From Coptis chinensis (lineage: Eukaryota > Streptophyta > Magnoliopsida > Ranunculales > Ranunculaceae), in contig CM027378.1 of the NCBI GenBank assembly GCA_015680905.1, positions 89,185,501-89,249,500 on the forward strand: DNA of 64,000 nucleotides, given 5' to 3'. Each line of letters begins with the position of its first letter. Positions within the stretch are counted from its first letter, which is position 1. The notes beneath the pieces are model-generated. The model saw nothing but the letters and a program-made list of their open reading frames with translations. It did not search any database and was not told where the DNA came from. Positions 2,926 to 46,056 of the stretch are shown here, piece after piece. The position numbers were made by a program, and so were the translations under genes.

Positions 2926-3007
2926 AAGTATGAAAATATTCCAATAAGTACAATCATAGCAACTATTGCTAAAATAAAATTTTAACCAACGCACCTTTAT
3001 TATTAAT

Positions 3008-3822: not shown

Positions 3823-4079
3823 CTTTCATACACAAAATTATAACATCATTGTATTATGAATCCAAAACTTTTATTATCATGAATATTCTTGCTACATAGC
3901 TCATTCCTTTAATAAAGTTGAAAAATACATTATTGATAAAATACCTTCAGATTATTGACATTTTGAGGTTTTGGAAGTAAATCGCCATCAACATTCTTCA
4001 AATAATATGCTCCATTTATTCCCACCTTGTGTACAATATAGGGCCCCTCCCAATTTGCTGATAATTTTCTAGCTCCTTT

Positions 4080-7312: not shown

Positions 7313-7348
7313 GGTATCGGATTTTAGAAATAAATCTTCTGCTAATTG

Positions 7349-9454
7349 TTATTTGGTGTCTTTCAAGACGCCCCCAATATCTATCTTCTTCTCTTTCATC
7401 ATACCCTTCACAGTAACAAAATTGTATTTTTCAGATTCTGACTGATCACCTCGTATCTCATGTGATCCAAAAACAGTCAGAAATCTGATAACCTGATAAA
7501 AAGTACTGGGAACCGCTCTCATAGCATGTATCCATTTTCTTCCCAATATAGCATTATGATTCGAGTGATGTTTGATGACTATAAACTTAGTAATTATTGT
7601 TTGTGGACCTGCCCTTACTGGCAATTTTATTTCTCTAGCTGGTCTAGTTAAAGTTCCATTAAAGCCATACGAATTAAACTGCAGTTCCTTCAGATGCGAC
7701 TCATCAAATTCGATACCTGTTATGCTTTCCAAAACAGAATATTGACCGAACTTCTACAATCCACCAATACTTTCTGCACATCATAGCAAGATATCCTTAA
7801 TGTAATTAACAATGCATTATCATGAGGTAACATTACTTTTGACAAATCATAGGAAACAAACATAATAGCTCCAGGTATGCTTGCCGCCACTAATGATGGG
7901 TTCACTGGTATCGGCTCTATGTTCACTTCTAGCACTTCCTTTACTGTCGATATCTTTCATATTTTATCCCTTATAATCTTCTTCTATGGGATAACTCCTT
8001 TGTATATCATATTGATCACTCCTAAAGGCTTATCATTCACCATAGCTGTTACTTCTGGCCGAGCATCTGCTCTGAACTCACGAAACTTCCCCTCTCGCAT
8101 TAATCTGCCTACCTCTCTGAGCAACTGTAAACATTTATTGGTTTCATGATTTTTCACCTTATGGAAATTACAGAAAGGTTTATCTGCTATTTCTCTAAGC
8201 TTGTGAATCGGATGCTGGAAATAAGGTTCTTTTCCCACTCTCCTTAAGATATCCTCTACTGTTGTACTAATGGCGATATAATTGTTAGGGTCCAACTCTT
8301 CTTTCAGCAACCTTTCAAACCTCTTTTTCTGTGATGGTTGGTTCTCCACATTTGCATAAGAATCTACCGTCTTCCTCTTATCAGACTTATTGTAGTTATC
8401 CTATTTAGTAGACTTATTTGATTCCGATACCTGTAATACTGACTGATTCGATGCTGCCATAATTCCCTCTTCAACTTGCACATTTTTTTCAGTCTTATCA
8501 TACAACTCTCTCAGAGTTTTGATCTCCTTCCGAAGCATATACTTGTGCATGTCAGAACCTGGAATAAGTCCTGTATGAAACGCCATTACTGCTGTCATTT
8601 CCGATTGATCTAAATGTTCCACTAACTGTGCCTCCGCCTTGAAGCAAGATAAGAAAGTTTTTAAAGATTCTTTTTTTCCTTGCTTAAGCTGGAACAATAC
8701 TGACACCTGCTTCGGTTTTACTCGCTGATGACCATAATTTGACAAAAACTTCTCTTCAATCTCCCGATAACATGATATCGATCCTTCCGGTAAAGAACAG
8801 AACCACTTCAACGCTTTCCCTTTTAGGCTTGCAGAGAAAGATTTACATAATAATGAATCCAGATAAACCGTACCTTTGTATATCGAAAATTGATGCCGAT
8901 ATCTGAATAGATGGTCCATCGGATCTGACGTCCCATCATATTGAGTGAACTTCGGAAGTTCGAACTTTGGTGGAATGGGCATCATCTCGATGCTCTGGTG
9001 TATCGGATTTCTGCTGACATCATCCGCAAGTTTTCTTATCGAAGCAGAAGTCTTTTCAAGAAGCTAGTTTTACATCATCTCCTGTATCATCTCTTTAGTG
9101 ATGGGTTGTGGTATCGACATTTCAAGTATCGGCGAAGCTTCTATAGTTCTTTCATGTTTTTCCGATGCTTTTTCTACAAAATGACTTCCTGACTTTGAAC
9201 TACATTCCTCTTCCTCATCTCCCTGGATATCCTTTACAACCACACTCGGACTCCTCTTCTTCATCTCTTGGTTCTCCTCTAGTAATATCGCATTTTGCTT
9301 TTCCACTTCCCCCTTTCAAAATTTCTTGAATTGAAGTGTCACCTTCCATGTTCTCCTCCTGGTATCGCCGATTCCCGGAAACTCTTATATTTCTTGTTTG
9401 CGATTGATTATCGTTATCCACTCGTTTGCTTTTTGTTTTCTTCCTTTGAGCCAT
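7349..9454 (-). mobile_element. gag and protease part of the Tat-lineage element (fossil)
   Basis: The gag core lies at about 8401-8985 (KFELPKFTQYDGTSDPMDHL, then FRYRHQF and ALKWFCSLPEGSI). A nucleocapsid-like stretch with FCNFHKVKNHETNKCLQL lies near 8100-8200. An aspartic protease with a DCRSSVNIL active-site-like motif lies near 7750, followed by its flap region. The 5' part (about 9070-9454) is charged and low in complexity. Order and motifs are those of Ty3/gypsy gag-protease. The region is broken. Confidence 0.85.
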
Positions 9455-10697: not shown

Positions 10698-11165
10698 TGC
10701 TTACACCTCTTTATATTCTGATTAACTGCATCTCCTAAATCGATATCTGCAAAAATATTCACAAGAGGTGGCACATTGTCCCAACTGCCCACTGGTCTCC
10801 ACAGGTATGTCTTCATAGTTCATAGGCATCAAAGTTAATGCCACTATTCTCAAAAACATTTGGTTCTGCAGGTTCACCATCATCGTCTCCAAAGGGATTC
10901 ACCTCCCATTCTCTTCAACCCCATCCACCGCTTCTATTATTCCAACCACCACCACCGCCACCGAATCGGCCACCAGCTGAACCAGGATGGCCTACATCCT
11001 GCCTCGGTGCACCCCAACAAGAACCACCACCAACAGGTCCACCATAACCAGATCTATCATTACCAGGTCCTACTCCTGTAACAGCTGGAGCTGGTGGATC
11101 CGATGAAGGTGGTCGATTACGAAGGTGTGGTGGAGATCGAGCTGGTCATGAAGTGTTTCCAACGC

Positions 11166-13295: not shown

Positions 13296-13311
13296 AATTA
13301 AACCACTGATT

Positions 13312-15526
13312 TGCAGATGACCTACTTGCATTCATGAAAGGTGAAGTGGACACAGCTAGGTGTCTAAGCCAAAATCTCCAGAAGTTCAAGCAATGTGCAG
13401 GACTAGAGGTAAACATAAACAAGAGTCAAGTATACTTCTCCGGAATGGACCAAGCTCAATGTAATGCTATCCAAGATGCACTACAATTTCCTGTGGGAAC
13501 TCTGCCAGTGAAGTATCTGGGGCTGCCATTGATCACAACAAGACTGAGAGCTTCAGATTGCATGTCGTTGTATGAAAGAGTAGAGAAAAGAATACAGAGC
13601 TGGAAAGGAAAGTCACTCTCTTATGCAGGGAGGCTACAACTTGTGAAAGCAGTACTAAACAACGTGAGTATATACTGGACTGCCTCTTTTATACTTGCAA
13701 TGAAGACTATTGAAGACATCAATAGCTTATGCAAAAAGTTCTTGTGGAAAGGCCCGACACAAGACAAATAATCGCTAATTAGTTGGGAGGACATGTGTTA
13801 TCCTATGGATGAAGGAGGGCTGGGAATAAGAGACTTGAAAACAAAGAAACAAAGCAAAGAAATCTGAAGCAAGTATGGCGATAGCAAGTAATAAGGAAAC
13901 TATTTGGGTTAAGTGGGTGAAGAAGAACTTAATAAAGCAAAAGAGGTTATGGGAAATGAAAATACCAACCGATTGTTCCCGGAGTTGGAGGAACGCATCT
14001 TGAAGTTAAGAACCGGGTCGTCGAATCTGATTTTGTATAAGATCGAGATGGAAGGAACACAAACCTGTGGGCACGACCCTTGGCATCCAAAGCCAGAATA
14101 CTTAGAGACAAGTTCCCACAAGTATTACGATATGCTTCCATAGGTAACTTTAATACTAAAGTATCGAACTTAATAGAGAATGGAAATGGGCTGCTCCACA
14201 AAGACACGTAATACATATGAATGAGATAGTGACGATGATGGAAGAGGAGGTGGAGATTGAAGGGGGAGACGATAGTGTGGTATGGAAGGAGACATTCACA
14301 GGAGAGTTCACGCTAAAGGACACTTACGATAGCTTAAGGAATGTTAGGCAGACGCCAGCTTGGCAAGGCTTAATTTGGTTTCCAAACATAATTCCACGCC
14401 ACTCATTCATTGGATGGATGTTCTTCAATGAAGGACTGAAAACAAGGGATAAAATGCGACAGCGAGACATTATACACGATGACATTTGTGTGTTATGCTG
14501 GAGGGAGACAGAGACCCATCAACACCTATTCTTCGAGTGCTCTTTAAAAAATATATGGTGTTCATCGATGTCATTAGCGTGTTACAGCAAAAAGATATGA
14601 GGAGGACGTGGCAAGACGAAATTGAGTGGTCGTGTCAAAATAGCAAGGGGAAAAGCAAAGAAGAAAGACGACTAAAAACTGGTCACAAAATCGCGCGTTT
14701 ATCTACCGGATTTGGAGGAGAGGAACAATAGGATATTCGAGAAAAAACAAGATTCCTTAATGAAATGGTACGACTAATCATGCACGACGTCAAGACAAAG
14801 CTAAGCTCGATCACATACAAGATGAAGGAAGGGGCGGAAAGAGATGAGTTTATGCAGAGATGGAATGTCCACACCGAACCCATCTCATTAAAGCTTATAA
14901 GATGTAAGTGGGAGAAAGCCGGGATAGGAATAGTGAACTTAAACACCGATGGTACACTAACAGGCATGCAAGGAGGATGGGCGCTTACTTTTAAGAGATG
15001 ATCAAGGACAAGTAATGGCAAAGAAAGAAAGGGAAGTCTCATTTCCATTCAATTGCTTTCATTGAGTTAGAAGGACTACATCAAGGATTGAAGTTAGCAC
15101 ACAAGTACAACATAAAAGAAGATTAAAGGCAAAACCGATTCAACAAATGTGCTGTCGCTCATCAAGAAAAGAAAGCAACCATGGAGAGCAAAGAAGATGA
15201 TTGAAGACATAAAGAAGCAGATTGCTAGCCTAGAGTTATTTGATATTATTCACATTTTTAGAGAATGTAATAGGTTAGCAGATAAATTAGCAGAGAATGT
15301 ACCAAATGTTTTCTTTATTGAACTCACCCCAAGCTCATTTTCTGAAGATATAAAGAAAATAGTGTTTGAAGATGCTAATGGGGTTAAGTACTTAAGGTTG
15401 TAATAATTCATTTTTTTCCCTATGGGAAGGGGTAGGGGACCTCTTAATTAAAAAACCCCGCTTGCCTATCAAAAAAAAATAAAAAAATAAAAAAATAAAA
15501 ATAAAATAAAAATAAAAAAAAAATAA
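13312..15526 (+). mobile_element. 5'-truncated L1-type LINE with 16-bp target duplication
   Basis: AATTAAACCACTGATT occurs exactly at 13296-13311 and 15527-15542, just outside the body. The tail before the right copy is a 60-bp run of A with T interruptions. The body starts inside reverse transcriptase at the catalytic FADDLLAFMKG. It continues through the RT thumb (LEVNINKSQVYFSG, VKYLGLPL, IQSWKGKSLSYAGRLQLVKA), the zinc-binding region of plant L1 ORF2 (CVLCWRETETHQHLFFEC) and a C-terminal RNase H-like part (VNLNTDGTLTG, then ECNRLADKLAENV). The frame is broken by a stop after GPTQDK and by several frameshifts, so it is dead. The 5' truncation and long A-rich tail fit target-primed reverse transcription. 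Confidence 0.93.
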
Positions 15527-15935: not shown

Positions 15936-18654
15936 TCAGCAATCAATAGAAATGCAGCTCTGAGCAATGGTTGTAGAGTCAACTTTTTTCAAGAAAGGAT
16001 CCACTTTAACCCATAGAAGTGAGAAGACAGAGGCCAATAAAACTGACCATAGCACAACAATTGTTGGAGTCCGGTTTTGTCTCCCCATGAGACCTTTGAG
16101 GAATGGATAAAGATGAAGAATCACCCAGAAGGCAAAGAAGACTTTGCCGAATAGTGGCCCCCAAGCTTCGTATCCACTATTCAGCGCATCGGAGAATCCA
16201 GCGACGACACCCACTATATTGACTACTATAAGTGTAGTTGGAGGGATTAGAAGTGTTGTCCATTTGATCATGTAAAGTTCACCGAATTCTGCATCTTCAG
16301 CAGCTTTTGCTGTCACTGTAAAGTTGGTATCTAAGCCAGCCAACATCTTTAGGAATCCCTGGAAGACCGCAAAGAAATGAGCTGAAACACCTCCAATCAC
16401 CCAAAACTGCTCATTACGCCACAAGTCTTCGATGCTGACTCCACTCCATCGTAGCTCAAGCACACTAGTTAAGATAATGGACGTGAAGAGGCCAAGAAAC
16501 CAGACAGATGCAAGGTTTGAGAGCTGAAGTTAAAGAAAATGTACAAATAATAAGTGAATGTGAATATCTCACCTGAAACTTCCTTAAAAGACCTTAACTA
16601 TACTGGTGAAGTCTCAAAAAAAGCTGAAGAGATGTTACCAAGCTTAAAGTAATGATTAAAGCAAGATAAAAACCATGCGTTAGGAAGTGGGTGAAAGTAT
16701 TTACCGTTGGTATGATGAATTTTCCAGTCAGAAGGCAAATAGCAGGAAGCGAGCAGTATGCCAGAAGAGGAAGGGAAGTGAAGGGGTAGACAATGGTGTT
16801 TATATACGCCAATCTTTGGAGCCATTTGAGACGCCCCCCACCGAATCCATACCAAAGGGGACAGTGTCTGCTGAGGAAAATCTCCACAGACCCAAGGGCC
16901 CATCGGAGAACCTGGTGTAATCGATCAGAAAGATTTAAAGGAGCTGATCCTTTGAATGCAGGTCTCGCAGGCATGCAATAAATCGATCTCCACCCACGGC
17001 AGTGCATCTTGAAGCCTGTTAAAATATCCTCTGTGACTGATCCATATATCCAACCAATCTAGCAAAGGCCGGGAAAGCATTCAGTTATGAAGGTCAATAT
17101 GTAATAAATGTTACAGTTGCACTATACAAAAAGAAAGTTGATCAGTATTCATACTAGAAATGCTTAATGATGAGAACGATGATGAACCGATGCAATAAAC
17201 ATGAGATACTTAAATCAGACTGGAAGGAGTAACCAGGAAAGGTCGAAAGGAGGGGAAAAAAATATGAAAGAGAAGAGCCAATAAATTTCATGTCAATTCG
17301 CATTATCAACAGTCTGGCATGAAATTTGCATGAATTGAAGATGTATTTTTTGAGAGCAATACAAAAAACAGCTAGGTGAGAGACCTCTTTTCCCCATGCA
17401 GTCTTCTCTTCGTAACCACAACTGATGACATGGATTGCCTCCTTGATCATCATTGATGGGTTAGCAGAGTCAGCAACACCACCATTTTCCATCATCGTAG
17501 ACTCGATGAATACAGTAGACATGCCAAATGTCTTCTCGAAGCTCATTTGTGAGATGAGAAGTGACCTCTCGTAGTCATCGTAGTCTGTGAAATAACCAAA
17601 CAGACTATTATCATATACGTGAGAACGCTAATTTTCTCATTTCTTTTTCTTTTTCTTTTTTTTTCTCCTCGGTTACATTTGGGACGAAAACTTACTCTCG
17701 ATTTCCCTGAGGTTAAAGATGGCGGCATTTAGATCTTCTCGTTTTGAATCTCTATAGACCTCTGAGACATCTTTAGAAGGCTTCTTGGACCTTTTGCAGC
17801 AGCAACACCAAGAGCAAGATGAAGAAGGTTTAGGAAGGCTAGGCAAAGATGCAGGGCCATAGCCATAAAGTGCTTGCCTATTGAACATACAACCAGTACC
17901 CACATAAACTGGTCCCTGAATTCCATCCAAACCCTTCATGTTAACCTGAAAGCAAACAGATTTCTCAAAAACCCGACTATAATTATTCTGGGCATTGCAT
18001 GAATAAAAGATGGTCATATTCGGAACATACGTCGAAGAAAACAATGTTTCGATTTGCGTATCTGTCGCTGCGGTCAATCCCATCGAATCTTTGAGGAAAC
18101 TGAACATAGCAAACATCTCTACCAACTTGTGGATCCATCATGAAGCACATGCCTTCACGAACTGCTTGACTGTTGTTAACATAGTGATCGCAATCAAGGT
18201 TGAGAATGTAGGGAGCATTAGTGAGAATGGCAGATACTCTGACCTGTAAGTATCCAATATTTATCGCATCATTACAAATAATTATGAGAAATGAAATTCA
18301 AAATTTCTAAAAGGGTTGTGTGTGAACTATATACCAGAGCGTTCATTGCACCAGCTTTCTTATGGTGCTGGTACCCAGGTCTCTTCTCTCTTGACACATA
18401 AACTAGTCGAGGAAGTTCATTCCCGTCCATGTCATGAGCACCACTGTGCCCAAGAAATACCTAGAGAGAATAACATTAGGAGGCAACATCATACAAAAAA
18501 CCACATCAAACTTTTTTTGGTTAGACCTGTATTATTCGTGAAGTCAGTCAAACACCCACATTATTTGCATGAAACACTGTACAAAACTTAAAATTTAGAG
18601 GAAAGTGGAAACAAGTCCATAGACTGAAAGTCAGAAACAAAACTAAATATTTAT

Positions 18655-18695
<41 letters not shown>

Positions 18696-21600
18696 AGCAT
18701 ATTTTTTAGAAAATGAAAAGAATCTCACATTACCTGAATCATGCCAGGATGATCACGAGTTTTATTTCCTGGCCAAGATGTCCCATCTTGCATTGTCCAA
18801 CCTTCATCTGGAGTCTTCTGAGCCTTGGCTACTAAAGCATTTACCCTGACCTTGTACTCTTCATAGTCTCTCTGCAACCAGATGGAAGGAAATCATTAAG
18901 CTTTTTAATTTCTTTATAATAAAAATGTTATGTAACTTTAGCCTGTCATCTAACAAAAGTAGAACGGAAGATATTAGACAAGTCTACTTCCAATATCTGC
19001 TACTAAGATTAGGATTGCTTACTTTCATTGCTCTGCGTTCCTTCACAAAAGAAGGTTGTACTTTATCCTTCAAGTAGTCAATCTTCTGTGAGAAATAGAA
19101 CTCTGGTGCTCGTGGTTCTATTGAATACTTTTTGCAGAATGGGACCCACTTCCTAGCAAACTCAGCAGTCTCAGCAAGAGATTCAAACGTAAGCATAGCA
19201 GCACCATCATCAGAGACATAACAAGATACTTTTTCGACAGGGTAGTCCACAGCAAGGATTGAGAGCACGGTATTGGCAGTGATTAAAGGAGGCTCCTTCA
19301 ATGGATCAACAGTACTAACAAAGAAATCAACAGCAGACAGCTCAGAAACTCCACCCTCTCTTTCAAACCTGTAAGAGGCATGATAAGAATATCGTTATTT
19401 CAACAACATATTCAAGCAATGAGTTAATGTAATATTCATCTTCGCGAATTGAGGGCATTTTATTTTCTGTGATATCCATAAACTTCATTGGATTCAATAA
19501 CATTTGCATATTTATGTTGCTAAAAACTATACAACATCCTTCACTGGCTTTGTTATTCTTCAGACATACCTTGACGATAGTATGTCAGTATATGTAACCC
19601 TATTTATAGGAGACCATTTAGGAAACTGATCCAACACCCAGGAGACAGCGAACCAAATCTCACAAATGATAGAAGTGAGCCATAGACCATATGCACTCTC
19701 GACTGGATTTGTTATTCTATAGTGGAAAAAAAGACCCAGGATTATCAATCTCGTAATAATCACAATCCTGTACGGAGTTATTTTGTTGGATGGAACTGGG
19801 ACTATTGTAGAAAGAGGTTGAACACCTTCTGAAGACCTGTAAACACACCATCTTTATCAGTAACATGTAGATGTTTTCTCTTAAAAATGAGAATTTTCAA
19901 ATGTAACTATCAGAAATCCCAAGAAATTAAAAGATAATATAGATAACATGCCACTCTCTTTGTTAAGATATAATGCACAAACGAATATGTATAGCAGAAA
20001 ATCAGATAAGTTCTTCGACCAGCGATGGTATGGTTTAACACAAATGCGAACTAAGAATAATAAACTTCTTTAGCTTTAAACAGATTAGCAGGTTAATACA
20101 TGTCTACATTGATAATAATAAAAAAACCACTATAGCTTTAAACAGATTAGCAGTTTTGTACATGTCAACATTGATAAAAAGATCCGACAGACATTGACAA
20201 TATCTGAGAGAAGTCAAGCCCAGTTTTTTACTATAAGAAAACCTTTTTTAATGATTATTTAACCTAAGTTCCAAAGGATATGAAGAAAACTCATCTTTAA
20301 GAAAAGAGGAAATCTAAGAAAAAACATTAAAAAAACAACAAACACATTAGGACGAGATTCTTCTCCCTTGCACGGATAGTAATAGAGGAGAAAGTTAAGT
20401 TTGAATGATTATATAGGAAATGGTACTCAGCAAATACAAATATTGAAGAAGTTATCATCTGCAAGTAAAACAGGAATGTTTCTATTCAGTCTTGATAAAT
20501 TCCTACTTCGGGAGATTTCTTCGTTTGTCCACAGTTCAGCTTGGTGCTTTTGCATAAGGACCAATGCAATTTCTTCTGATACAGCATATATACTTACTGT
20601 TTTTCTTCTATCTGCTGCTGAGATGGAATTTCAGGTTCTTGGCCACCTTTATTTGCAGGCTTCTTTTTCTTTTTATCTGATTTCTCCTTCCAACTTTCCA
20701 CCCTGTTCTTCCATATTGGATTCCCAGATTCCGCATATGACTCTTCAGAACAAAATCAATAGCCAACTTAATGCCTTTCGAATTTTTAAATCTAAAAAAT
20801 AGATACCCATCACTGATAGAGATAGACAACAAAACTCACCACTATCAGCTGCTGAGAAATTACTTAAATGTCTCGAATGAATTCCAACATCCTGTGGACA
20901 TAGATAAAACAATGAAGAAATCAGTTTCCCTAACAAAGTGAAAGTCTGTGCTGAAACATCAAATCAATTCGAACCTCACACTGAAAACACATAAGAGTAC
21001 AACACATTGTTCTGCCCTAGTACTCAACACAAGCATTTTGTAAGGCACCAAAAGAGCTTACTTGACTATCATGTAGATGAGATGCCATTGTTGTGCGGTT
21101 TCCTGCTTCCATGTCAACATCCTCCATTGATGGATTCTCTGAAGAACCAGTATCAATATATTTATCAAGAAATTTAAATACCAATCCACAAATTCGTGCA
21201 TGATACAAAAGAACTTGAAATGACACATGGTAAGATGGGCATTCCGAAAGGCAAGGAACTACATCAAAGATGTGTTAGGAGTATTGTCCTGGTCAGATCC
21301 AACTCAACGATCGAGTTCTGATAACTTAAGACCAATATATATTTGACTTGTCCCTCAACAGTCTAGTAATATGGCAAACAAACATACATATTCAGTATTT
21401 ATACTATTTTCATGAAACAAACATAGTGTACAATTGGAGAATATATGCAAACAATTTATCTGCATGAGTTTCAAATAACTAAATCGCTATAAAAACAGGA
21501 AAGAGAAAAATAATGAACTAACCCAAGCTATCAGCAGGAAAAGGAGCACCACATCTCAAACACCCAGTTTTCCCTTCTTTCACCTCATAATCAAGACAAG

Positions 21601-22558: not shown

Positions 22559-25500
22559 TTAAAGAAGTCGTGATGCATGCTGAGAGTTGGCCATTTCCCT
22601 CAAGACAGCACCAACAATTGCAGCTTGTTCCAGACATTCAGCCTTATGCAATGCATCCAAAAGGGTGATACAAGTCTTTGTATTTATTCTACAACCTTTG
22701 AATCTGGTTTCCTCGAACAGTGTAAATGCATCCATTGCTTTATTACAATTGCTTAATCCTTCAATTAAAGCATTATAACAAGCAGAATCAGGAATATTAC
22801 CACCTGCTCTGAACCTCTCAAATAACTCATTTGCCACTGCTATGTTCCCAGCCTTTGCAAGCCCAGTGATCATGGTAGTGTAGGTAATAACATTAGGCTG
22901 TAACCCTTGTTTTTGCATCTCTTGCCAAAAGACAAAAGCCTTGTTGAACTTTCGAACTCGGCACAGACCATTAATGAGGATGCTGTAAGTGAACGTATTG
23001 GGGGTGCATTTTAAATCTTTCATGGACTGAAAGCAGACAAGAGTCTCATCAACCTCCTCAGCCTTAACTAAGGCATCAAGAAGACAGTTCCATGTATAGA
23101 CATTAGGTGTCAAACCCTTCTGCATCAACTCCTCCAGAATAAGATATGCCTCATCAATTCTACCCACCTTCCCAAACCCATCAATAAGACTGCTATACAC
23201 TACGACATTCAACTCTATTCCCCTTGACTTGGCTTCTTCAAAGAGCATGTATGCCTCATCAAGCCTGTCAATTTTAGCAAGCCCATCCACGACAGATCCA
23301 TAGGTAACCACAGTAGGTGGAAGGCCCTTGACCTTCATTTCCTCCAATAGCTGGTAAGCTTTGTTTACATTACCAGACTTGCAAAACCCGTCTATGACAG
23401 TGTTATAAGCAAGAGTATCCAGGACATATCCTTGTTCTTTCATTGCATAAAATAACTTGTAAGTTTCTCGTGCATAGCCACCTTTTATCAGGCCATTAAT
23501 CAAGATACAATAGCTCCGTACATCAGGGGTAAATCCTCGAGCTCGGATCTCTTCAAATAAAGCCCTGCCCTTCTCAGTATCACCAGACTTGAAAACACAA
23601 TCCATGTATGTATTAAGAAAGGTCAAATCCAAAGCACATCCTCTGCGTACCATCTCTTTGTAGATTTTATGCCCATCCTCCTTTCTGCCATACCTGAAAA
23701 AATTTCTAATGAGGGACGTGTAGGCGACAGCATCAGGGTTATGACCTGCATCCAACATTCTCTCAAATAAACTGTAAGCCTCATCAACCCTGCCAAATCT
23801 GCCCAGACCGTCTATCAAAGAACAAAATGTGATCTTGTCGGGGGTACAACTCTTTTGAGCCATATCTTTAAAGATACGGCAAGCTTCGTCAACCTTTTGT
23901 GCCTTGCACAAGCGGTCAACCATTATATTCACAGTCAAGACATTGGGAAACAAGCCAGCTCTTTCCATGGTATCTCGAGTCTCGTAAACAGACTCAATTT
24001 TTCCTGCTCTGCAAAGCATGTCTATAAGAATGTTGTAGGTTGAAAGATTGGGTTTTGCGTCCTTCTTCATCTCCTCAATAATCCTCAGAGCCTCATCTAC
24101 TCTACCCTTCCTCCCAAGGCAAGTCAGTATACAATTGTAAGCAATCACGCTGGGTATGCAACCTTTTTCTTTTTGCCTCTCAAGTAGCTTGTAAGCTTCA
24201 TCAAACTTCCCAGCAGATCCATAACCCATGATCATGGTGTTATAAGCATAAGCACATGGAACTCTCCTATTAAGTTCCATCGTCTCAAATAGATCCACAG
24301 CTTCATCCAGCCTTTTTGCTTTGCAAAGAACCCCTATCATGCTAGTATAAGTCACATCATCAGGTGCAAGGCCTTGTGCGTTCATCTCATGGAAAAATTT
24401 CCAGGCCATATCCACCTTACCCACCTTGCCAAAGCAATCAATACAAACATTATACAGGACGGTATCTGCTTCAAAAGCATGGCTCTTCACTTTGTCCAGC
24501 AAAGCAAGAGCAGCATCAACCTGGCCTTCCTTGGCAAACACCCGAATAAGAGTTGTGAATAACTGCATGTTCACTTCGTAGCCCAGCTCTTGCATCTGCT
24601 GAAACAGGGTAAGCGCGAGACCAGGCTCGTGGACCACAGCAAAGGCACCAATTAGAGTTGTATAAGCTGAAAAAGCAGGGCGGAACTTGAATTTACGGAT
24701 GCTTTGTATCAGATTAAAAGCGTCTTTAAGCCTTTGAGAGTTTACACAGATGGTGACTAATTCGATGCAGGTATTGTTTGAGAAGTCATACCCAGCAAGA
24801 CTCATTTCTTCCAGAACCAGTTCCAAATTATCAAAACATTTACATCTAGCCATCAACTTCAAGAGCATATCATAGGCTCCAGGACTGTGCAATTTGCCAG
24901 TTTTTTGCTCTACCCATCGGAAATAGCTTGTTGCTAAATTGACATCTTTCAACCTCTTTAAGACTCCAATAACCAGTTCCGGTTGAGGTTCTTTGTCCAG
25001 TGAATATAATTCTTCCTCCATGGCTGGTCCCCAAGGACAACTTAAAATGCGGCAAACATCACCTACTCCTGCTACTGTATCGTCCCTCCTCCTAGGGACA
25101 TTTTGATTACCCCTATCTACAATGGCAGTGGCTTCCCCATCTGGATCAGTAGAAGACCCATTATGCAAGGAGGATAACTCCTTGTATCCAGTGTAGATAA
25201 CAGAACACTTCAGATCAAAATGCCAGATTCCTGCAATGCAACAACTCAACAAGAATATCGTTTAACAACTATAGTCTTGAACCTTTTGACTTAATGCAGT
25301 GGAAAAGAAGACAATCAGACTTAACAAAATTTTGGGGGTTTGAAACCATCTGTCAAAAATTGGCATCAAGGAAAACGTTGATATTTATGAAATATGGATA
25401 TTATCATGGATGAACTCAACATTCTGGATTTTTCGCACTTTTAAATTCAATTTACAATTTTAAGCACACATTTCTATATATTTGAAACCGAAATGTGTAA

Positions 25501-31052: not shown

Positions 31053-31327
31053 AGCTTTCTATATTTCCCTCGAAACTCTCTGCGGTCTGTGCTACTACTA
31101 CCGTGCTTTTAAGTCCCGCCCCCTTTACTTTGGATTTGGGCTTAAAAACTTTGACTGCAAAGTGCAAATCAGCAATGCAATAATGGGTCCACAAAAGCCC
31201 AAAGATTGTTGTTTTTAAGATAGGCTGGCTCCTAGAAAGACCTTAAATAAGAACCAAATCTAAAACAACCACAACTTCACCTACAAAATGATTTAAAGTC
31301 TAATCTTTTGTCCCTACTAGCCATTTG

Positions 31328-31346
31328 GCCCGGCCTATGGCCGGAC
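31328..31346 (-). repeat. 3' terminal hairpin of the Helitron
   Basis: The 19 nt read GTCCGGCCATAGGCCGGGC on the minus strand: an 8-bp stem with one G-T pair and a 3-nt loop, placed 7 nt before the terminal CTAG. This is the standard 3' signal of Helitrons. Confidence 0.85.
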
Positions 31347-31691
31347 TTGCTACATAAATAGCTAATGACTCAAAAGCCTAAAATCTACTTGAATAAATAA
31401 TATATGTATATTGATAGCTAATGATTCATTGTATACTTTATTTGAAGGGTTTATGTTTTTCTAATTTTTTTAGAAGGGTTTTGACAAAAGGTTTTATTTC
31501 TATTTTTGGGTTATTATTATCCTAAATAACAATTCTTATCATCCACCTATATAAACTATATCAAAATATAGCGCAACAATCAAGAAATATAACACGTACT
31601 CAAAACATACCATATGTTGGAATATAACACGTACTCAAAACATACCATATGTTTAAGCGATAACCGAATTATATTCATTACGCACAATGCT

Positions 31692-32073
31692 TCATTCTGC
31701 ATTTGAAGTTCTTCTACTTGAATATTTGGCTTCGTAGAGCTCTTCACGTCTAGTCATGAGTTCGTTGTAGTTCACATCTAGTACTTCAAACTTGTATATC
31801 GATCTGTTGTAGATAGCGTATGACATTTCCTGCAACAACATTTTTTGAGTCAACTTTCTTGGTTTGGTATGTTCCAAATGATGTTTGTATGCTAGGATAA
31901 TTTGGATCTTGATGGTATTCTCTTAGTATAGGCACATTGATTGCGACATCCGCTACGTACTGATAGTTCTCAAATATTGAACTGTAAACTGGTTCTTCAT
32001 AAATTTTTTCTTTTTTGAAAATTTCTCTAAGTGCACTCTTCAGTGAAACATTGTGTTTTGTTTTGTACTCCAC
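31692..32073 (-). other. Unidentified ORF region near the 3' end of the Helitron
   Basis: Two overlapping minus-strand frames cover this stretch: one of 95 aa opens MEYKTKHNVSLKSALREIF, and one of 61 aa runs further downstream. The first has a helix-like start, a middle with YQYVADVAINVP and an end TKKVDSKNVVAGNVIRYLQQ. The pattern weakly recalls a double-stranded RNA-binding fold, which is only a guess. A frameshift may join the two. It could be another captured host fragment. I do not recognise the source. Confidence 0.35.
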
Positions 32074-33903
32074 GATCTTCTTGTTGTATGTTTGATTCTT
32101 GTTGTATGTTTGATTATCTTATTTTTTTTTTATTATAGTAGTTTAATAAAAAAAAAACATATATTGTCATGGAATAAATTGTGTTTAGCATGTATGTGGT
32201 TGGTATATATATATTTCATAGGGTGAATAGTCCATTTTGTTTTGTAATTTGACTGTAATTAGAAGTTTTTTTAATTACATCTGGAAAAGGACGACTATGA
32301 GATAATGATACTATCCTAAAATATATAGTTATATGAATCTTATACGATTTTATTGCAACATTACTTTTTCCACGCTGATTAATAACTATTTTAAGCATAA
32401 AAGGGTCATATCTGGCGAGCTTCTCCATTTGGACTTGCAAATGGCACTATTGTAACCGGCTTTACAAAGACCGTTAGAAATGTCGCTCGTCAAACATTTG
32501 CGGCATTCCTGTGCCATCGGTCTCTGTCAAATGCATATTGTTCCAGCTAATTTTGTTGTCTTGAGTGCTTTTTTTCCAGAGAATTAGTCCTACTTAAGGT
32601 CTCCTGTAAGAATTATCACCAAGTAGAATAGGAGTCAGTCATGTCGCCTTATTAAATTCCTGGTCCTAGACCATGGGCGATGTGTCCATTATATATATAG
32701 TAATGAACCGTGAACGAATGTTCTGTATAGAAGACATGAAACTTACATGGAGAACTTCTTGTTATCTCCCAGAAAACTTTTCTTTCTTCCACATGTTTGA
32801 TGATATTACCATAATTAATGCTGTTACAGACTAAGAAACTGATGGTCTGAACTGATCGGCCTACAGGCCCACTTCATGAGCCTATGAATCTTTTATATGA
32901 TTAAATAACGAACTAAGATAGTAAGTTATAATCGAGTGAGCGCACGTCCAGTTTTAATTGCTGATCCTTGATCCTTCCCATTTTATGTTATCTTTTTCTT
33001 TCTTTGGAAAATCTCACCACGAAATAGCAAAGTTCACTTATCATATCTTCGTTGCCTATAAAATCAAGCTGGATTTTTATAGCAAATATATATTTCATGT
33101 TTTAATTTTTAGAAAATAATCATTGCAGCAGTTAATTTCTATATTTGTATCAATTAATGTTGAAAAGGAAAGTAAATAATTTTTTGCAAAAATTCTGAAC
33201 TGGACGTCTGGAACTGGAAAAGGGACATAAATGGTGTTACACATGACATGAAAATGAAATGGAGCGAGATCTTATTCCATAAAAATGGCTGAACCCGGTC
33301 ATCCAATGAGATTCCAAATTATACTCTTGGGTGGAACAACTGGTAGAATTCATAATATGATCTTGTTAGTATTCTTAACTGACTTCGGAGATAACTGCAA
33401 TCATCTAATAACATGGCTGCAATGAAACTCCAACAGCCTGATGTTTAGTCAAAATTGTTTCACAAAAAATAGTAGTCAACAAATAAACGTTTTCAAAACA
33501 GTAAGATCTTGGGGAAGAAATGAAAGAGCATTTTTGAAGTGTTGTGTGAGCACCTGGACTTTTTTTAACAGCTAAACAGTTGAAACCGACAATCAGCTGA
33601 ATACAGAAAACACAACTTAAAAAGTAGACAGGTTTGCAATATCATATCAAGATATTAATGGAGTCACATCAACCGTCTGATTATAGATTACACTTGATGA
33701 ATTAGAAATGGCAAACCTGCAAAACTGCCAAACCCCTAATTTAGAAATCCCAGATTATCCAGGTTATATAATCCCCACAATCATTTACTGATTTGCCTAA
33801 TGGTCTTGTACAAACACGGTGCATCTTGCAACAAATGCAGATGCACCCACAACAACAATGACATCAGCTTTGTCCTCCAGCCATAAGCCATGGCCGGGAG
33901 CCT
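32074..33903. other. Helitron interior without a recognised gene
   Basis: This stretch is A+T-rich with no ORF that I recognise. Just after the SEUSS fragment (33781-33900, minus) one frame reads APGHGLWLEDKADVIVVVGA, which looks protein-like and could be one more captured piece, but I could not identify it. Confidence 0.4.
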
Positions 33904-34725
33904 TTATACGTCCCACTCAGGGAATTCGTTAGTTATATCCTGTTCCAATTCAGGCAAGTGAAGATTCTTCGTGTCATCTGAAGATTTCAGACTAAAACTG
34001 TCGTTACCACCAAACATGGGGTTGATATTAGCCGAGGTCTTAAAGCTGTTGTTCCTATTCTGCATCTCATTGATAATACCGCCCGGAGCATTACTGCTGT
34101 TCCTATTCTGCATCCCAACCATGCCTGTAGCACCCGCCCTCATTGGCAGACCTCCATTTGTGGCCCCATTTAATACATTAAAGGTTGCCTCACCTACAGG
34201 TCCATTTGCATTATGCCCACCAGGTGATTGTTGTTGCACCCTTCCTCCACTGTTATTCATCATCTCATGAAGCAACTGCTGGATCATGTGCTGCTGCAAA
34301 TTCTGGCTGCCTTGAGAAGACTGTGAATGGTTCTGCTGTAGTGCACCGTTTATTGGGTGCTGCTGCTGTTGAGGCTGGCGTGGGGTTGACAATCCATTAA
34401 CTGGTATGTTTTGCATTGATCCCTGAATCGAAGATTCATGACCTTGAAATGGAGAAGTTTGTGTCTGAATTGGAGTATTGAAGGGAGAAGCCTCTTGTTG
34501 AAGTGCATTAGGATTCGAATTCATGGAGTTCTGCCTACGCAAGTTCTGATAATTGCTGAGAGCCAATGCAGTTTGTGCTGAAGTATTCAAGACTCCACTT
34601 CCAACCATGTGGTTGTTATTGTTCATATGACTACTAAGACCAGGATGAATTGACATAACATTACTCAGTGTGTTGCGATCATTTGGTAGACCATGAGCAC
34701 CACCAACCTGCTGCCCAATTTCTCA
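33904..34725 (-). pseudogene. SEUSS / SEUSS-like C-terminal fragment
   Basis: Known SEUSS proteins are Gln-rich transcriptional adaptors that act with LEUNIG. Here only the C-terminal part is present: GLPNDRNTLSNVMSIHPGL, then LSNYQNLRRQNSMNSNPNAL, a Gln/Asn-rich stretch with SQNLQQHMIQQLLHEMMN, then MQNRNNSFKTSANINPMFGG. It stays open for about 270 codons. It ends DITNEFPEWDV where the family usually continues to a NGFF-type end, so the true C-terminus is lost. Upstream a stop precedes EIGQQVGG, and the conserved LIM-binding-like domain is absent. It lies inside the Helitron, in its orientation, so I read it as a captured fragment. It retains enough open frame to be transcribed and perhaps translated. 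Confidence 0.82.
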
Positions 34726-34987
34726 GGTGTGGAATCCAGTAAAAAACCAAAAGTTGAGACTCTCTCTTACCTTCCCCCACTTTCAGCCGAGTCTTTGGCG
34801 GAATAGCACTGTTAAATCTCGCTCATCATCCATATAAACAAAAGCAAATCCTATAACATAAACAAAAGGAAATAAAATCTGGTAGATACCACACAACTAC
34901 CAAAGAGGAATAATACAAAATCCAGGATCTCTATGTAACATACGGAATTAAACAACAACAACAACATGAAAATGATAAAATAGTATA

Positions 34988-35195
34988 CCTTTTATATACC
35001 TGACCAAAGGTACCACCCATTACGAAACAATCCATCAGCACACTGATGACCTTCCCAAAGTTCAAGTCCACCAGTAACAATTTCAATCCACGAAAACAAC
35101 TGGATGGTTCGCTCTCAAACCTTCTTTCTGCAATTTAACACCAGGTGTATCTGGTAATGGACCTGTAATTGCTTCAGTTACATATTGAGGAAACG
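34988..35195 (-). pseudogene. PDAT1 (phospholipid:diacylglycerol acyltransferase) fragment
   Basis: The minus strand reads QYVTEAITGPLPDTPGVKLQ, then KEGLRANHPVVF, IVTGGLELWEG and QCADGLFR, then in a shifted frame MGGTFGQVYKR. This is the well-conserved stretch of plant PDAT1 just after its membrane anchor. PDAT moves an acyl group from phospholipid to diacylglycerol to make oil. Only about 70 of about 680 residues are present, with a frameshift and a small change before IVTGG, so it cannot be active. It lies within the Helitron and in the same direction as the other captured pieces. Confidence 0.85.
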
Positions 35196-35933
35196 AAGCA
35201 GACTTCAAAGTTCAAACTGATGGCATGTAAATATATAATATCAGTAATGGTACTTTACAAAATGTTAATTTCTACATTTATAATCTATGCAATTATCAGA
35301 ATAAAAGGAAAGTTACATAAGGCAACCTAATTCACGTATAATAGACTAATAAACATGCAACATGCATCATAGATTTCTCACTCATACCTACAACAAATAA
35401 AAAGGAGTGAGCGGCCACCGATAAATGAAATAAAAGGAGATGAATATTAAGAGTGGATTATTAATGACATGTGCAAATTAGTTATCAATGGCTCGCAATT
35501 TCATCATAATTATAACAACTTGTAGTGGTCCAACACTCCAACCATTATTTTAGGAGACTATGGTTTGTCTATCAGACGAAATAAAAAATTCTAAACTAAA
35601 CATTGAAGATGTAAAACATGATCTCCGTTGTCAGGTGAACATGGAAATGTTCCTCTGTTTTCAGCAAAAATCAGTAATAAGGACAAAAGTGCATCTCCTG
35701 AACATTATTACACTTTGCTGGATTTCGCCAAATCAGATGAATATAACTAAAAGTGATAGGAGAGGGCAAGAAAACTCCAAAGTTTCACGTAGTGTTCCAC
35801 TGCTGGAAGAAGATTCAAGAACTGATTTTCTGTCTAAATAAAATCAGTTCTTTACCAATACATAATCCTAATTCCAAAATACTCTATAAAATTATACTAC
35901 CTTAAAGAGAAAAGCTTCAGAAAACCATATAAC

Positions 35934-35996
35934 CTGATGAGCAAAGCGAGAGTTCTGATAACCAGTCTTCATGAGCTGTCCCCAAACCTTGTGAAA
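35934..35996 (-). pseudogene. Isolated 63-bp spliced exon of unknown origin
   Basis: A 21-codon open stretch, FHKVWGQLMKTGYQNSRFAH plus Q, is bounded by a pyrimidine-rich TTTTCCTTTTCAG on its 5' side and a GT on its 3' side. The frame is uninterrupted and its length is a multiple of three. It looks like a true exon taken from a host gene, but I do not recognise the gene. It lies inside the Helitron. Confidence 0.5.
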
Positions 35997-36451
35997 CTGA
36001 AAAGGAAAAGCAGAAATTGTAAATCCGAGTATGAGTGACTGCTCCAGGTGTCGTTTTCATGCAGAGACTCAAGGACAAACGATGTTTAAATAGATCAAGG
36101 AGAGAAAAGCTTTGTATTTCATGGTTCGAACCCTACAAATTTACCACCTCAACAGACGTGTACATCCTAACGTAGCATGTTCATTAGACGTACTCATGAG
36201 ATTGTAGTTCTTTGGTACCAATTACTTTTGAATTATTTACCTCAACACACTCACAAATTTGCTTACAGCAGCAACAACGTATACAGAATGGTAAATGCAT
36301 CCAATGCCTGACTATCTCAAACATGCATGATGTCAACACAGCGTGCAAAAGCACATGGAATTTCTTTCTTCCAATTAAATGTAATTCGTGTAAACGATGT
36401 TAATGACTTAATGACCTTTAAATCAGATAATCATAAACAATAACCACACAC

Positions 36452-37040
36452 CTGTTTAGCGACGAATTCAGGATAATTGTCTTGAAGAATAGAGAGAGCT
36501 TGATTAGTAGCATGACGAAGTTCCGTCTTCAAAGGTCCAGGTGAGTTCTTCAAGTCATTAACCTGAACAATCTGGACTAAAATCAAGCTTCTAAATACTC
36601 TTCTCCAAAAACTGAATCCTCCACCTCAAACAGTTTTTACTCTTCTCTTCATCAGAGAAAGTCTTCTGATACAATTCCTTGTTCTGGAACTCCCCATAAA
36701 CATTATAACAAACTGGGTGTCCTTCTTTATCAAAACCATTCATGAAAACAACTTTTTCAAGATCAGTACCAAGATCTTCATCAAGAATCCTTCGATACCA
36801 AACTCCTTTCTCCACAGCACAGTGTTCTTCACCATAGTGAATGCATCCTTGACCTTGAAATCGCGACCTCACAAGAACTTCAAGAGAATAGTATCACTCT
36901 TCTCCCCAAGTGAAGACTTCTTCTGGTGGTACTTGTTCTTCTTCAACAATTGGCGTTGGCGTTGGCGTAGTCTCTTCTTCCTTGGTTTCTTCAACAACAG
37001 TTTCAGTTTTTGGTTCTTCTTCTTCTTTGGCGACAGCCAT
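36452..37040 (-). pseudogene. Patellin-like (SEC14-domain) fragment
   Basis: Patellins are phosphoinositide-binding SEC14/GOLD proteins of membrane traffic and cytokinesis. From an ATG at 37040 the minus strand reads MAVAKEEEEPKTETVVEETK and then an acidic tail with TPTPTP. Next come GRDFKVKDAFTMVKNTVLWR, DLGTDLEKVVFMNGFDKEGH and PVCYNVYGEFQNKELYQKTF. A second exon (36562-36452) reads VNDLKNSPGPLKTELRHATN and NYPEFVAKQ. It is broken: a TGA lies before GRDFK, frames shift between the blocks, and a TAG replaces Arg after FLEKSI. The lipid-binding pocket end and the GOLD domain are missing. It lies inside the Helitron and in its orientation. Confidence 0.87.
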
Positions 37041-37379
37041 ACTTATTGTTATTTTGTTTCTAGGCAAATTATTTGTAACGAAGAGCTCAACAATAAAAAA
37101 TGTAACCTAGTTATTTCAATAGAAGCTAAACTTCAAAATAAGACCAACAGTAGTAAAACAAAGCCTCTACGGGATACGGGAGCAGTGGGCTACTAACAGT
37201 TTAGTAGCCTAAATGCAACATATGAACTACCTTAATTTCCAACCTGATTATCAAGTGGCTAGAAACTGTCAAAGACACCAAAAGCAAATGACAATGGCAG
37301 CAAAATACTTGGCTCATCAAGTTAGTACTGCCACATTAAATTGAATTTCCGTAAAGCTTAACAGTGTAGATGCTTTTCT

Positions 37380-38639
37380 CTAAACAGTCAAAACCGATGA
37401 GAGCATCTTTAATAAGATTAATACAAACCATTCTAGTGTTATGAGACACTTTCCAGGATGACATTTGCAAATACAAAGTAACACCATCAATATATTGTAC
37501 GAATCCGCATCAGGAACCTCACTACTCCGAATCATCATACAAATGGCATTCCATGTGCTTCCACAACCCTCCCTTCTTTGCAAAGAGCATGCATCAACGT
37601 GTTATATGTTATCACGTTTGGCGGAACTCTGTGCTCCATCATTTCACGGAAAATTCTAATAGCATCATTCATATAGCCTCCGATAAAATACCCATGAATA
37701 ATAGAACTGTAAGTGGTGACATTAGGGAATACATTTTTATCCCTCATTTCTCCAAACAACTTAAGTGCCTCACCCATAACTCCCTCCTTAACAAACCCAT
37801 TAATAACTATATTATACGCAACCACATTAGGCTTACAATTCTTCTCCTCCATTTTCCTAAGCAAACCATTAGCATCCATTACCTTACCCGTCCTACAAAA
37901 CCCATTAATAACAAAACCATAAGTAGGCTTCAGGCGGGCATTTCAACATTCTCATCTTCTCAAGTAACGTTACAGCATCCGATAACCTATTCTCCACACA
38001 AAGACCCTTAATCAAAGAACCAAAAATAATCGTATCCGGATTATGCCCTCTTTTAATCCTCTCCCCCAAAACCGCAAAAACCAAGAATCAACAAAATTCA
38101 AATGACAATAACAATGTATCAATATAGTCAATGTATAGTTATCCAGGACGACGCCAATCAAACCTATCTTCCTATACAAGTTAATAACTTCCAAAAACCT
38201 CTTCAGTCTATACGTTACATTGCTTTTAATAACATATTAAAAGTGTAAACAGAAGGTGTGGGGCATATTTCGATTGCGCGATTAAAGTAACCCAATGCAT
38301 GTTCATATGTCTTTAGATAAACATTGGTCAGTTATGAAGTGTTCTAATTGGGCTTTAGTGTTTGGTGTGTTTAAGGTGATGAGTGATATGGTTTGTGAAT
38401 CTGTTAATGAGTGTTTTGAGAATGAAGAAAAAGAAGAAATATAACGTGATGAGAAAGTACCACTACCCTTTGGAGATAAACAACAACGACATGAAGTTAT
38501 GGCTGCTCTTATTGCTGCTGCTGCTGCCATTTGTACAGCCAATTTTTGAGAAGGCAGAGATGGGTGTAAACACTTTTTGCTTCTCACATGTAATGGTGTT
38601 ATGGGCGTATGAGATATGGGTGTTGTGATATTTGCACCC
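37380..38639 (-). pseudogene. PPR protein fragment (P class, Rf-like)
   Basis: On the minus strand a serine-rich N-terminal piece (SSRYISSFSSFSKHSLTDSQ) is followed by PPR-like units: FNRAIEICPTPSVYTFNMLL, LDNYTLTILIHCYCHLNF and HNPDTIIFGSLIKGLCVENR. Clean P-type repeats follow (CKPNVVAYNIVINGFVKEG, VFPNVTTYSSIIHGYFIGGY, VPPNVITYNTLMHALCKEGR). Stops and frameshifts are spread through the first half, so it is not a working gene. The repeat style is that of Rf-like PPR proteins rather than the large neighbour at 22559-25735. It is inside the Helitron, near its 5' end. Confidence 0.8.
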
Positions 38640-39402
38640 ATTGAATTAGGAATGGTTATATTTTTTGCGGATGGATTGATTGGTCTGGGGTTTTGACGAA
38701 GAGTCTTTTGCTCTCTTCTTTCTCTCTCTCTATTTTTTTTTTTTTTTTAAGGTTCGGTGAGAAGAAGAAGTATGGGTTTATTTGTTTTGTTTTGTTTTTA
38801 TTTATTTGGCATTGGATCCAATCTGAAATATAGACGATGGTTCCATTAATGAAAAAAAACTTGTTTTGTTTGGAGATAAGATTTAAGAACGGAGTAAGAA
38901 TGGAGATAAAATTTAAGAATGAGATAAGATTTAAGAAAGAGGTTTTTATCTACTTATCTATTTTGGGTTTATGTATTTTGGAATTTCTTAACAATTGAAA
39001 TCGCAAAAAAAGGGCGTAGAATTCATTTTTTTAAGTAAAATCTGATGTGTCAGTCCTAGAGAAAAAAAGGGGGCTGACGTGGGTGCCTGGGATCATTCTC
39101 AACTACTGAGTATTAATGGTCTTTGATATGATCTACTAACCATAAAGAATATATGTACAAAAATTCAACTCGTTTGATATTCTCTAACTTAGATAAAAAT
39201 TATTGTCCACTTTTAAAAAATATCTAACGGTTCAGAAATGTCTAGTTTTTGCAATCATTTTTTGCCAATGTTAAAAATTATCAAATGAATTGAATTTTTG
39301 TAGATCATATGCACAAAAGATTAGGTTTTAAATCATTTTGTAGGTGAAGTTGTGGTTGTTTTAAATTTAGTCCTTATTTAAAATCCTTCTAGGAGCTGGG
39401 TT

Positions 39403-43290: not shown

Positions 43291-43712
43291 TCCAGTAGCA
43301 GCTTAATATTCTGATTGATTAACCAAGTCCATTTAGATTATTGGCGTTCCATCATGGTGTCATCACAATGTTTCGGCGATATGTGCAGAAATATCTGAGA
43401 AGTGAGTGACGAGATTTTGACCTTTGGCACCAAGAACCAATTCAAGGTTGTTGTATTGCTATTGGGTTAAATTTTGGTGGGGAGACAAAAAGTTTGTTTT
43501 CTTATCGAATTTGGGTTTTCTAAAAACATATTTTTCCATAATAGATGAATTTATCTTAGGTATTTAGGCGTCAATCAGAATATTTACTAGGATTAGCTTT
43601 TTGTGCAGCTTACTACATGAAATTGGCCACTATATGTTTCGGTTTTCTAATATTTACAGATCTCATACAGCGGATATTAGTATGAGATAAGTAAACAACA
43701 TGATAGTATAAA

Positions 43713-43908
43713 GGACTATCTACACTCTACTTATAAATGCAATTTTATTTCCGCTACAAAGAAGTTTTTGTTTGTTAATAGATATCTTGTGTGCTATGTG
43801 CATTAAGAAAGGACTATCTACACTCTACTTATAAATGCGATTTTATTTCCGCTACAAAGAAGCTTCTGTTTGTTAATAGATATCTTATGTGGCTATGTGC
43901 ATTAAGAA
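43713..43908. repeat. 98-bp direct tandem duplication
   Basis: GGACTATCTACACTCTACTT starts at 43713 and again at 43811. The two copies run to CATTAAGAAA with only a few differences. It lies inside the hAT-like element. Confidence 0.9.
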
Positions 43909-46056
43909 ATACTATAGTGAATATTTATTATGAAAGAATTATGCGTTCATTGTATAGTTATAATGTAAGCTATTATTGTTTACAAGTTTTCTGCCCCCCT
44001 TTTCTTATAGCTGCAATTTATTAATGGAGTTATCTTATGATTTGTTATCTACCCATACTTGATATGTAAATTCAATAATTATGAGTACCTCAGCGTTGCT
44101 TCTTCCCGTGTTATTGTCCTTCTCAACTTTCTACCTATGTAAGTTTTCCTATGGTTCCTAAAAAAGTCAATATGAGTTGATTTACCACTTAAAAGTTTGG
44201 AAACTTAAGTTGCTATTAATCAACTATTATGAGAATTCATTATGCTTTGTCCTTGCTATTTTTCTTGATTGTTAGATCAATTTGTGATGCATTTTGGTTT
44301 ATTTCTAGAATTCTTTGCAGTGCATAACTTATTTGTTACTTAGGTTAGGGGGATTAGAGTTAGTTGGATTGCTCTTGAGAGCTAGAGGATTGGTAGCCCC
44401 TCGCATCATAAGTGAGTTTTTTTGTTCTTTGGATATGATTGAATATGAGCATCCCTCTAAAGTTCAGTCTTACAGAGTAACGTAATTGTAATTGTTATGT
44501 TGTATTTGGGTTATTTGTAATTGTAATTGCAAGGGTCTGCCTTGATGGTTGCAAGCATTTTGCAAGCTTGCTGATTACCTTGTTATGAGATGCTTGAAGA
44601 GATGAACCACAATTTAATTTTCTAGGACAATCAGATAGTGTGCACTTACTTTTGAGCAACAATAAATTGATTATAGACTGAAAGGCAATAGCATGCTGAA
44701 ACGAAAAACACTTTGAATTTGGCTTCACAGTATTGAATCTTTGTATTTTATCAATAGTTTAGAAATCAAACTCAATGAAATTCTAATTTTTTCTTGGGTT
44801 TAATGGTCACGTGTGTGCTTATGCGAAGTGACCATCGTTCTCATTTCCTCGTGACCCATCATGCAAAAGGTATGTCGTTTGAGTGAGTGCGCATGCTGAC
44901 TCTAAGCTTCATTCCTTTGACGGATTGTGAGATTTCTAAAGAACGGTAAATTGTGAAACCGTGCATTGCCCAAATACTGAAAAATAATGTCGTGCCACTA
45001 ACTTATGGTCTGTGACACCTTTGTGGATATTTAGAAATATCCATAGTTATTGTGGTTTACGCTTTTTGGGTGATTGATCTACTTGATAAGGAGATACATT
45101 TAAGAATGCAATGTACTCTGTTGTCTTTGAAAGCGAAAGCATTGTGAAATCCAAAGATTACTCTTTCTACATGAAATGATGGCGTGTCCGGTGTTGCCAA
45201 ACTATACATTTTTGTGTGCTGATTTGTGGTAGATTCGTTTTCAAGACACGGTTGGTTTTTAGAGACTCATTACATAGCGTATTAGTTTTACTTAGTTGGA
45301 AAAAAATATATAATATCATTTACAGGATGCAAGTAGTTTTCTGTTACGTGCTTTGGAATTTATGAAATTTAGAGAAAGTTATCCGTGGTCCGCATTCTTT
45401 CTTTGTTGTATAGTTTTCTTGAACTGTGTTTGTAATTTTGTACGCAAGTGTGGACTGTTGAATCATAAGGGAAAGATGCTGGTTAATTTGCTTTACTTAT
45501 GTTGAGATTCACATGCAACACATGTGCACGATTGCTAGTATTTTGTGAAGTCTCTTTGGCTTAGTTTAATTTGTTTGGTTATTTAGTTTATTGAAGTTGT
45601 GCTAGATTGTTTTGGGAGATACGATTTTCATTTTGCTATTTAATTGTTGATTATGTTTTATTCTTTTAAGTGATCGATTACTACCTAAACGATTCAAGAT
45701 TTTTACAGGTGTTGCTCAATAGTTGACAAGTTCACAATCCTACAGAATTGATTTTATTGTTTAGCCATACAAATCAACGATAATTCATGCCATATTTTTC
45801 TTTTTCTTTTATTTATTTTTTTAATTACTGAGCGCCTCACTTCAATAAGACGCACTCCTTGCGCCTAAGACACAGAGAGTAGAAGTGTTTGAGTACACTG
45901 GTTCAAATGTTGAGTAGAAGCGTTTGAATGTCATTGTTCAAAATTCCTACCCTAAATATTTTTATGCAGTAGTACTAAAGCTGCCATACGGCCATACCCT
46001 ATCTTGAGAGTTGAAAATAGTAGCGTAAGGCAACCTTCCAGTCTTCCACACCCTGA

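Follow-up and report, generated by a model that had tools for sequence, protein, structure and literature searches.

A probable non-autonomous Helitron carrying pieces of several genes, inserted in the arm of an older foldback element

The segment described here lies in a 64 kb window (the whole stretch of DNA that was analysed) in which the G+C content varied between 31 and 43% across 2-kb intervals and which contains PPR, WD-repeat and retrotransposon genes as well as a gene of the cellulose synthase family. Going by this content, the window appears to be nuclear DNA of a plant. From the left end of the window, minisatellite arrays with units of 68, 86 and 87 nt in up to 13.8 copies (1983-3826) are followed by a retrotransposon whose gag and reverse transcriptase ORFs are in pieces (6156-9063), a remnant of a reverse transcriptase that includes a zf-RVT domain and is taken to be LINE-like (13310-14597), a cellulose synthase family gene on the minus strand (15939-19394) and a single, open PPR frame of 900 aa (22559-25261), while further to the right a 98-nt unit is present in two copies with 95% matches (43710-43909). 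The WD-repeat gene starts with an ATG at 31024 on the minus strand, and WD40 (PF00400) was found above the cut-off in two stretches of its hand-joined exons. Its upstream region is occupied by an inverted repeat, or foldback, and by the segment that interrupts one of the foldback arms; the ATG lies 292 nt downstream of the 3' end of this segment, in the same direction. The features of the segment and of the foldback are collected in Table 1.

Table 1. Features of the segment and of the foldback around it; positions are those of the window, and a slash marks a boundary.
Feature	Position	Strand	Basis or remark
Probable non-autonomous Helitron	31317..39126	-	7,810 bp; 5' end TC at 39126, 3' end CTAG at 31317
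5' terminal TC, A before it	39125..39126	-	Sequence; restoration of the arm supports it, with caveats
3' terminal CTAG (CTRR)	31317..31320	-	Sequence
3' subterminal hairpin CCGGCC-ATA-GGCCGG	31330..31344	-	Folding and pattern scan
PPR gene, 5' part	37535..38530	-	ATG at 38530; Pfam PF13041, PF12854
Patellin-like (CRAL-TRIO), 5' part	36452..37040	-	ATG at 37040; ends at apparent splice donor AAACAG/GTGTGT
5'-nucleotidase (PF05761), apparent exon of 63 nt	35934..35996	-	TTTTCAG acceptor, CAG/GT donor
PDAT1-like exon end (presumed)	34989..35190	-	Putative PDAT1 motif; apparent donor AAAAG/GTATAC
SEUSS-like last exon (presumed)	33904..34722	-	272-aa open frame running to stop; family label putative
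PDDEXK_6 piece	32404..32514	-	PF04720, E=1.9e-9, 38.3 bits against a cut-off of 25; ORF 32386-32526
110-aa open frame near 3' end, possibly another captured piece	31786..32118	-	ORF
Foldback left arm, outer part	31228..31316	+	Inverted repeat with 39308-39396, 89% over 89 nt
Left arm remainder, displaced by the probable Helitron	39127..39199	+	39153-39199 and 39259-39305 inverted repeat, 79%; alignment
Foldback right arm, uninterrupted	39259..39396	+	Inverted repeats and alignment

Read on the minus strand, the sequence at 39126 is ...GATCATA/TCAAAGACC and that at 31317 is ...GGCCGGGCCAAATGGCTAG/TAGGG, and the segment between them opens as A/TCAAAGACCATTAATACTCAG and closes as CCGGCCATAGGCCGGGCCAAATGGCTAG/T. 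It starts with TC (TCAAAG...) and ends with CTAG (...GGCTAG), that is, a 5' TC and a 3' CTRR are both present, and the flanking bases are A and T. Helitrons create no target duplication, yet a 2-nt TA is present on both sides of this segment. PMC3288121 gives TC and CTRR ends, a hairpin and insertion between A and T as the rules for these elements, and for plants it describes a palindrome of 16-20 nt whose distance from the 3' end is about 10-12 nt. In our segment the hairpin closes a 3-nt loop with a 6-bp stem made entirely of G+C, and 9 nt separate it from CTAG; it is 15 nt long and 13 nt away from the last base, or, with two outer pairs (T-G and G-C), 19 nt long and 11 nt away. With these pairs it agrees with the palindrome rule of PMC3288121, and without them it is 1 nt short of the range. 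The original prediction had named a TC start, a CTAG end and A and T flanks on the minus strand, all of which we read in the sequence at 39126 and 31317, as well as a hairpin 7 nt from the end. The hairpin is indeed present, but it lies 7 nt before CTAG only when the outer pairs are counted, and in neither form 7 nt from the very end.

We scanned both strands of the 64 kb window for a hairpin (stem of at least 6 bp with at least 4 G+C) followed by CTRR and T, and obtained two matches, one at the end of the segment and the other at 10973, where the 7-bp stem has 4 G+C. In 30 random sequences generated by a first-order Markov chain the same scan averaged 0.7 matches, and none of the 30 contained a matching stem with six or more G+C. 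When the last 50 nt of the segment were folded as single-stranded DNA, the z score was -3.15 and 1 of 200 shuffles folded equally well. The scan, the random sequences and the fold thus place the CTAG end beyond chance. This cannot be said of the TC end by itself, which 2 of 48 right-hand grid positions satisfy and which was picked on account of the arm.

The foldback is roughly 0.36 kb in size. Its outer arm parts, 31228-31316 and 39308-39396, are complementary without gaps up to 31316, the base before CTAG, where the match stops. Joining 31316 to 39127 gives ATATGATCTAC, whose 11 nt are found without mismatch in the other arm; the junction reads TTTTGTCCCTA/TATGATCTAC and the other arm reads TTTTGTGCATATGATCTAC. 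At this joint the restored arm is 2 nt longer than the other arm, and close beyond it lies a 22-nt block which is absent from the other arm and distinguishes the two. Among 2112 nearby joints, 499 scored better than 31316/39127 under ordinary gap costs, and 21, 40 and 75 did so when gap extension was made cheap in three further schemes; each of the best 25 listed leaves out 16 to 22 nt beginning at 39127, and the joints that align the arms better include those with 39147-39151 on the right, or 31313/39126. On the other hand, the pattern A/TC...CTRR/T is found at only 2 of the 2112 joints, and 31316/39127 is the better of the two under all four scoring schemes. The arm had been predicted to become continuous once the segment is taken out, which is borne out by the 11-mer across the joint but is only approximate with regard to the extra 2 nt and the 22-nt block. 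Similarly, "exactly defined ends" had been claimed; we take the 31317 end as exact, but the wording goes too far for the 39126 end, which is likely and owes as much to the Helitron consensus as to the arm.

These joints bear directly on where the 5' end lies. If it were about 22 nt further out, near 39148, the Helitron would include 39127-39148, and the arms do need fewer gaps when restored by the joints 31311/39147 and 31313/39149 (scores of 179 against 147 under ordinary gap costs). However, the other arm contains an exact counterpart of the TATGATCTAC that stands at 39127, and none of the joints further out has A/TC...CTRR/T; we consider such an end improbable. A different class of element has also to be weighed, since the arms at 31228-31316 and 39308-39396 could be the terminal inverted repeats (TIRs) of a Pack-MULE-like or foldback transposon, with the gene pieces as its cargo. 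Pack-MULEs, which also shuffle gene pieces, differ in having long TIRs with a target duplication of 8-9 bp, and no such duplication was seen here. It is true that long inverted arms, 89% alike, flank the gene pieces, and the review of gene-piece capture in PMC13317346 describes such capture for Pack-MULEs. But the left arm resumes at 39127-39199, where 39153-39199 pairs with 39259-39305, leaving a complete short foldback without the cargo, and the break in the arm falls exactly at the CTAG end with its hairpin. Furthermore, in the 30-nt stretches around the arm ends the longest exact direct repeats were two 5-nt matches, GCTGG and GTTGT, although a diverged duplication is possible. The reading of the arms as the ends of the mobile unit fails because the foldback arm is split, and we give it a very low probability. 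The TA on both flanks of the segment (CCCTA on the left and TATG on the right, beside the A and T flanks) could also point to a TA-duplicating cut-and-paste element of the Tc1/mariner-like kind. The chance of this is negligible, since the segment lacks terminal inverted repeats (its ends agree at only 6 of 30 positions in an ungapped comparison), and the hairpin and CTAG would then be there by chance.

Between the ends of the segment we found pieces of unrelated genes which, from the 5' end of the presumptive Helitron, follow in the order PPR, Patellin-like, 5'-nucleotidase, PDAT1-like, SEUSS-like, PDDEXK_6 and the 110-aa frame. The PPR and PDDEXK_6 pieces scored above the cut-off as plain ORFs. 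The PPR piece is scattered over at least five frame segments, with matches to PF13041 (E=3.4e-52 at 37535-37942 and 0.0024 at 38012-38236) and PF12854 (E=2.3e-10 at 37905-38087). The Patellin-like piece was above the cut-off only as a read-through typed by hand (CRAL_TRIO 1.6e-7, CRAL_TRIO_N 4e-6); a single ORF of it alone gave CRAL-TRIO at 0.0042, below the cut-off. For the 5'-nucleotidase exon, ORF 35892-36056 matched PF05761 with E=1.8e-5 and 24.3 bits, under the curated cut-off of 28.5. PDB sequence searches with one Patellin-like ORF and with the 5'-nucleotidase exon gave no useful match. The read-through of the piece that we take to be PDAT1-like by its motif matched nothing in Pfam or PDB, and the 272-aa frame, which we take to be SEUSS-like, matched no Pfam family; a literature search combining the PDAT1 and SEUSS names with short motifs found no paper. 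For the 110-aa frame there was no Pfam match, PDB returned only two designed proteins (0.013 and 0.017) and the AlphaFold model (pLDDT 47.7) was too poor for use. A double-stranded-RNA-binding domain, considered for this frame, is unsupported, as Pfam gave no match. The PPR frame at 22559-25261 is unlikely as donor of the captured PPR piece, being 40% identical to it at best.

At least four unrelated gene pieces, all in the direction of the Helitron, had been predicted, and we now have six named pieces, two of which, 5'-nucleotidase and PDDEXK_6, are additions; all six lie on the minus strand. Among the original labels, PPR is upheld by Pfam and Patellin-like holds as CRAL-TRIO in the typed read-through, whereas PDAT1-like and SEUSS-like remain putative names with no Pfam match. 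By a fair coin, the common direction of six named pieces would occur 1 time in 64, and that of the four with some Pfam support 1 time in 16, which is only suggestive of a non-random direction; our search of the literature gave no clear source on the orientation of captured Helitron pieces. Because apparent introns and splice sites are retained, the pieces appear to have been taken up as genomic DNA, and splicing at the apparent sites is predicted.

The pieces are unevenly decayed. By homology-guided frame reading, in which the counts of breaks depend on assumed family sequences, the PPR piece has at least 4 frameshifts, the Patellin-like piece about 3 frameshifts and 2 stops, and the PDAT1-like piece at least 2 frameshifts, so that some 11 breaks fall within about 1.8 kb. 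With the same density, about 5 breaks would be expected in the 0.8 kb SEUSS-like exon, and none was seen; its unbroken frame fits a later capture or some constraint. The original prediction had also proposed chimeric transcripts of SEUSS-like, PDAT1-like, Patellin-like and PPR-like sequence, which would be hypothetical. Since the PPR, Patellin-like and PDAT1-like pieces are broken in frame, a chimeric protein spanning them is unlikely. The uneven decay could serve to date stepwise captures once the donor genes are in hand.

Pfam was also searched with all 64 stop-to-stop ORFs of at least 45 aa on both strands of the element. None of them matched a Rep or helicase family at E up to 0.05, and the element is therefore classed as non-autonomous. 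The 14 families found at E<=0.05 include five PPR families, PDDEXK_6, 5'-nucleotidase and CRAL-TRIO; the remaining six, with a best E of 0.0021, are weak and we take them as chance. With up to 3 mismatches allowed, the rest of the 64 kb window contained no second copy of either end, blastn within the window gave no further copy of the Helitron or of the foldback, and 26 nt from the 3' end had no exact match in viral_contigs, which is what one expects of plant DNA. On the strength of its ends, hairpin, A and T site, lack of TIRs and of Rep/helicase matches, interrupted foldback arm and several gene pieces, we argue that the minus-strand 7,810-bp segment is very probably a non-autonomous plant Helitron inserted in the arm of an older foldback of about 0.36 kb, carrying genomic-DNA pieces of apparently six unrelated host genes. 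The same lines of evidence support the multi-capture, non-autonomous Helitron of the original prediction.

Among known systems the element resembles the gene-carrying, non-autonomous Helitrons of maize, for which PMC3288121, PMC2575219 and PMC4528327 describe TC/CTRR ends, a hairpin, an A/T site, several gene pieces, zero to nine per element (PMC3288121), and a mean length of 4,616 bp; it differs in being set in a foldback arm. Its 7.8 kb make it long beside the means given in PMC2575219, 950 bp for Arabidopsis and 441 bp for rice. Xuan1, described in PMC13286980 as an active non-autonomous Helitron of wheat, likewise has TC and CTAG ends, no transposase and a 6-nt stem, which lies 11 nt upstream of its 3' end sequence as against 9 nt before CTAG here; unlike Xuan1, our element carries many gene pieces. 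With Helraiser/Helibat (PMC4778049) it shares a hairpin near the 3' end, and the read-through transduction reported there, past the 3' end, offers a model for capture; that animal element has been shown to be active, whereas the capture mechanism here is only inferred.

The ends and the arms place the insertion of the element in one foldback arm, probably between an A and a T. Following published Helitron work, we suggest that the element would have moved by rolling-circle peel-and-paste, for which an autonomous relative would provide the Rep/helicase in trans. The GC hairpin before CTAG may act as a terminator, a role which can only be inferred here, because PMC2575219 reports little evidence that the hairpin is important, and PMC4778049 describes the Helraiser hairpin as a terminator and yet not absolutely required. 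The captures may have come about by stepwise read-through or end-joining events, probably at different times, as the cleaner SEUSS-like exon suggests, and the cargo, of putative host origin, is by now mostly decaying pseudogene matter.

Read-through into flanking exons is reported for maize Helitrons in PMC4528327, and by likeness to maize it is possible that transcripts read through from our Helitron into the WD-repeat gene. It is also conceivable, though we consider it improbable, that the Helitron acts as a donor of exon and promoter, so that a transcript started in the cargo, in which selection might be keeping the open 272-aa SEUSS-like exon, would read or splice past the 3' end into the WD-repeat gene and replace its displaced promoter. 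The position of the element beside this gene makes an effect of read-through testable. Helitrons of this type are already well known and our understanding of them is unchanged by the present one, an ordinary member of its kind with a rich cargo; it would appear as a clear multi-capture Helitron, unevenly decayed, with apparently six donor genes all pointing the same way. It may be noted that, near its 3' end, a perfect 33-nt sequence is repeated with a spacing of 35 nt at 31586-31653.
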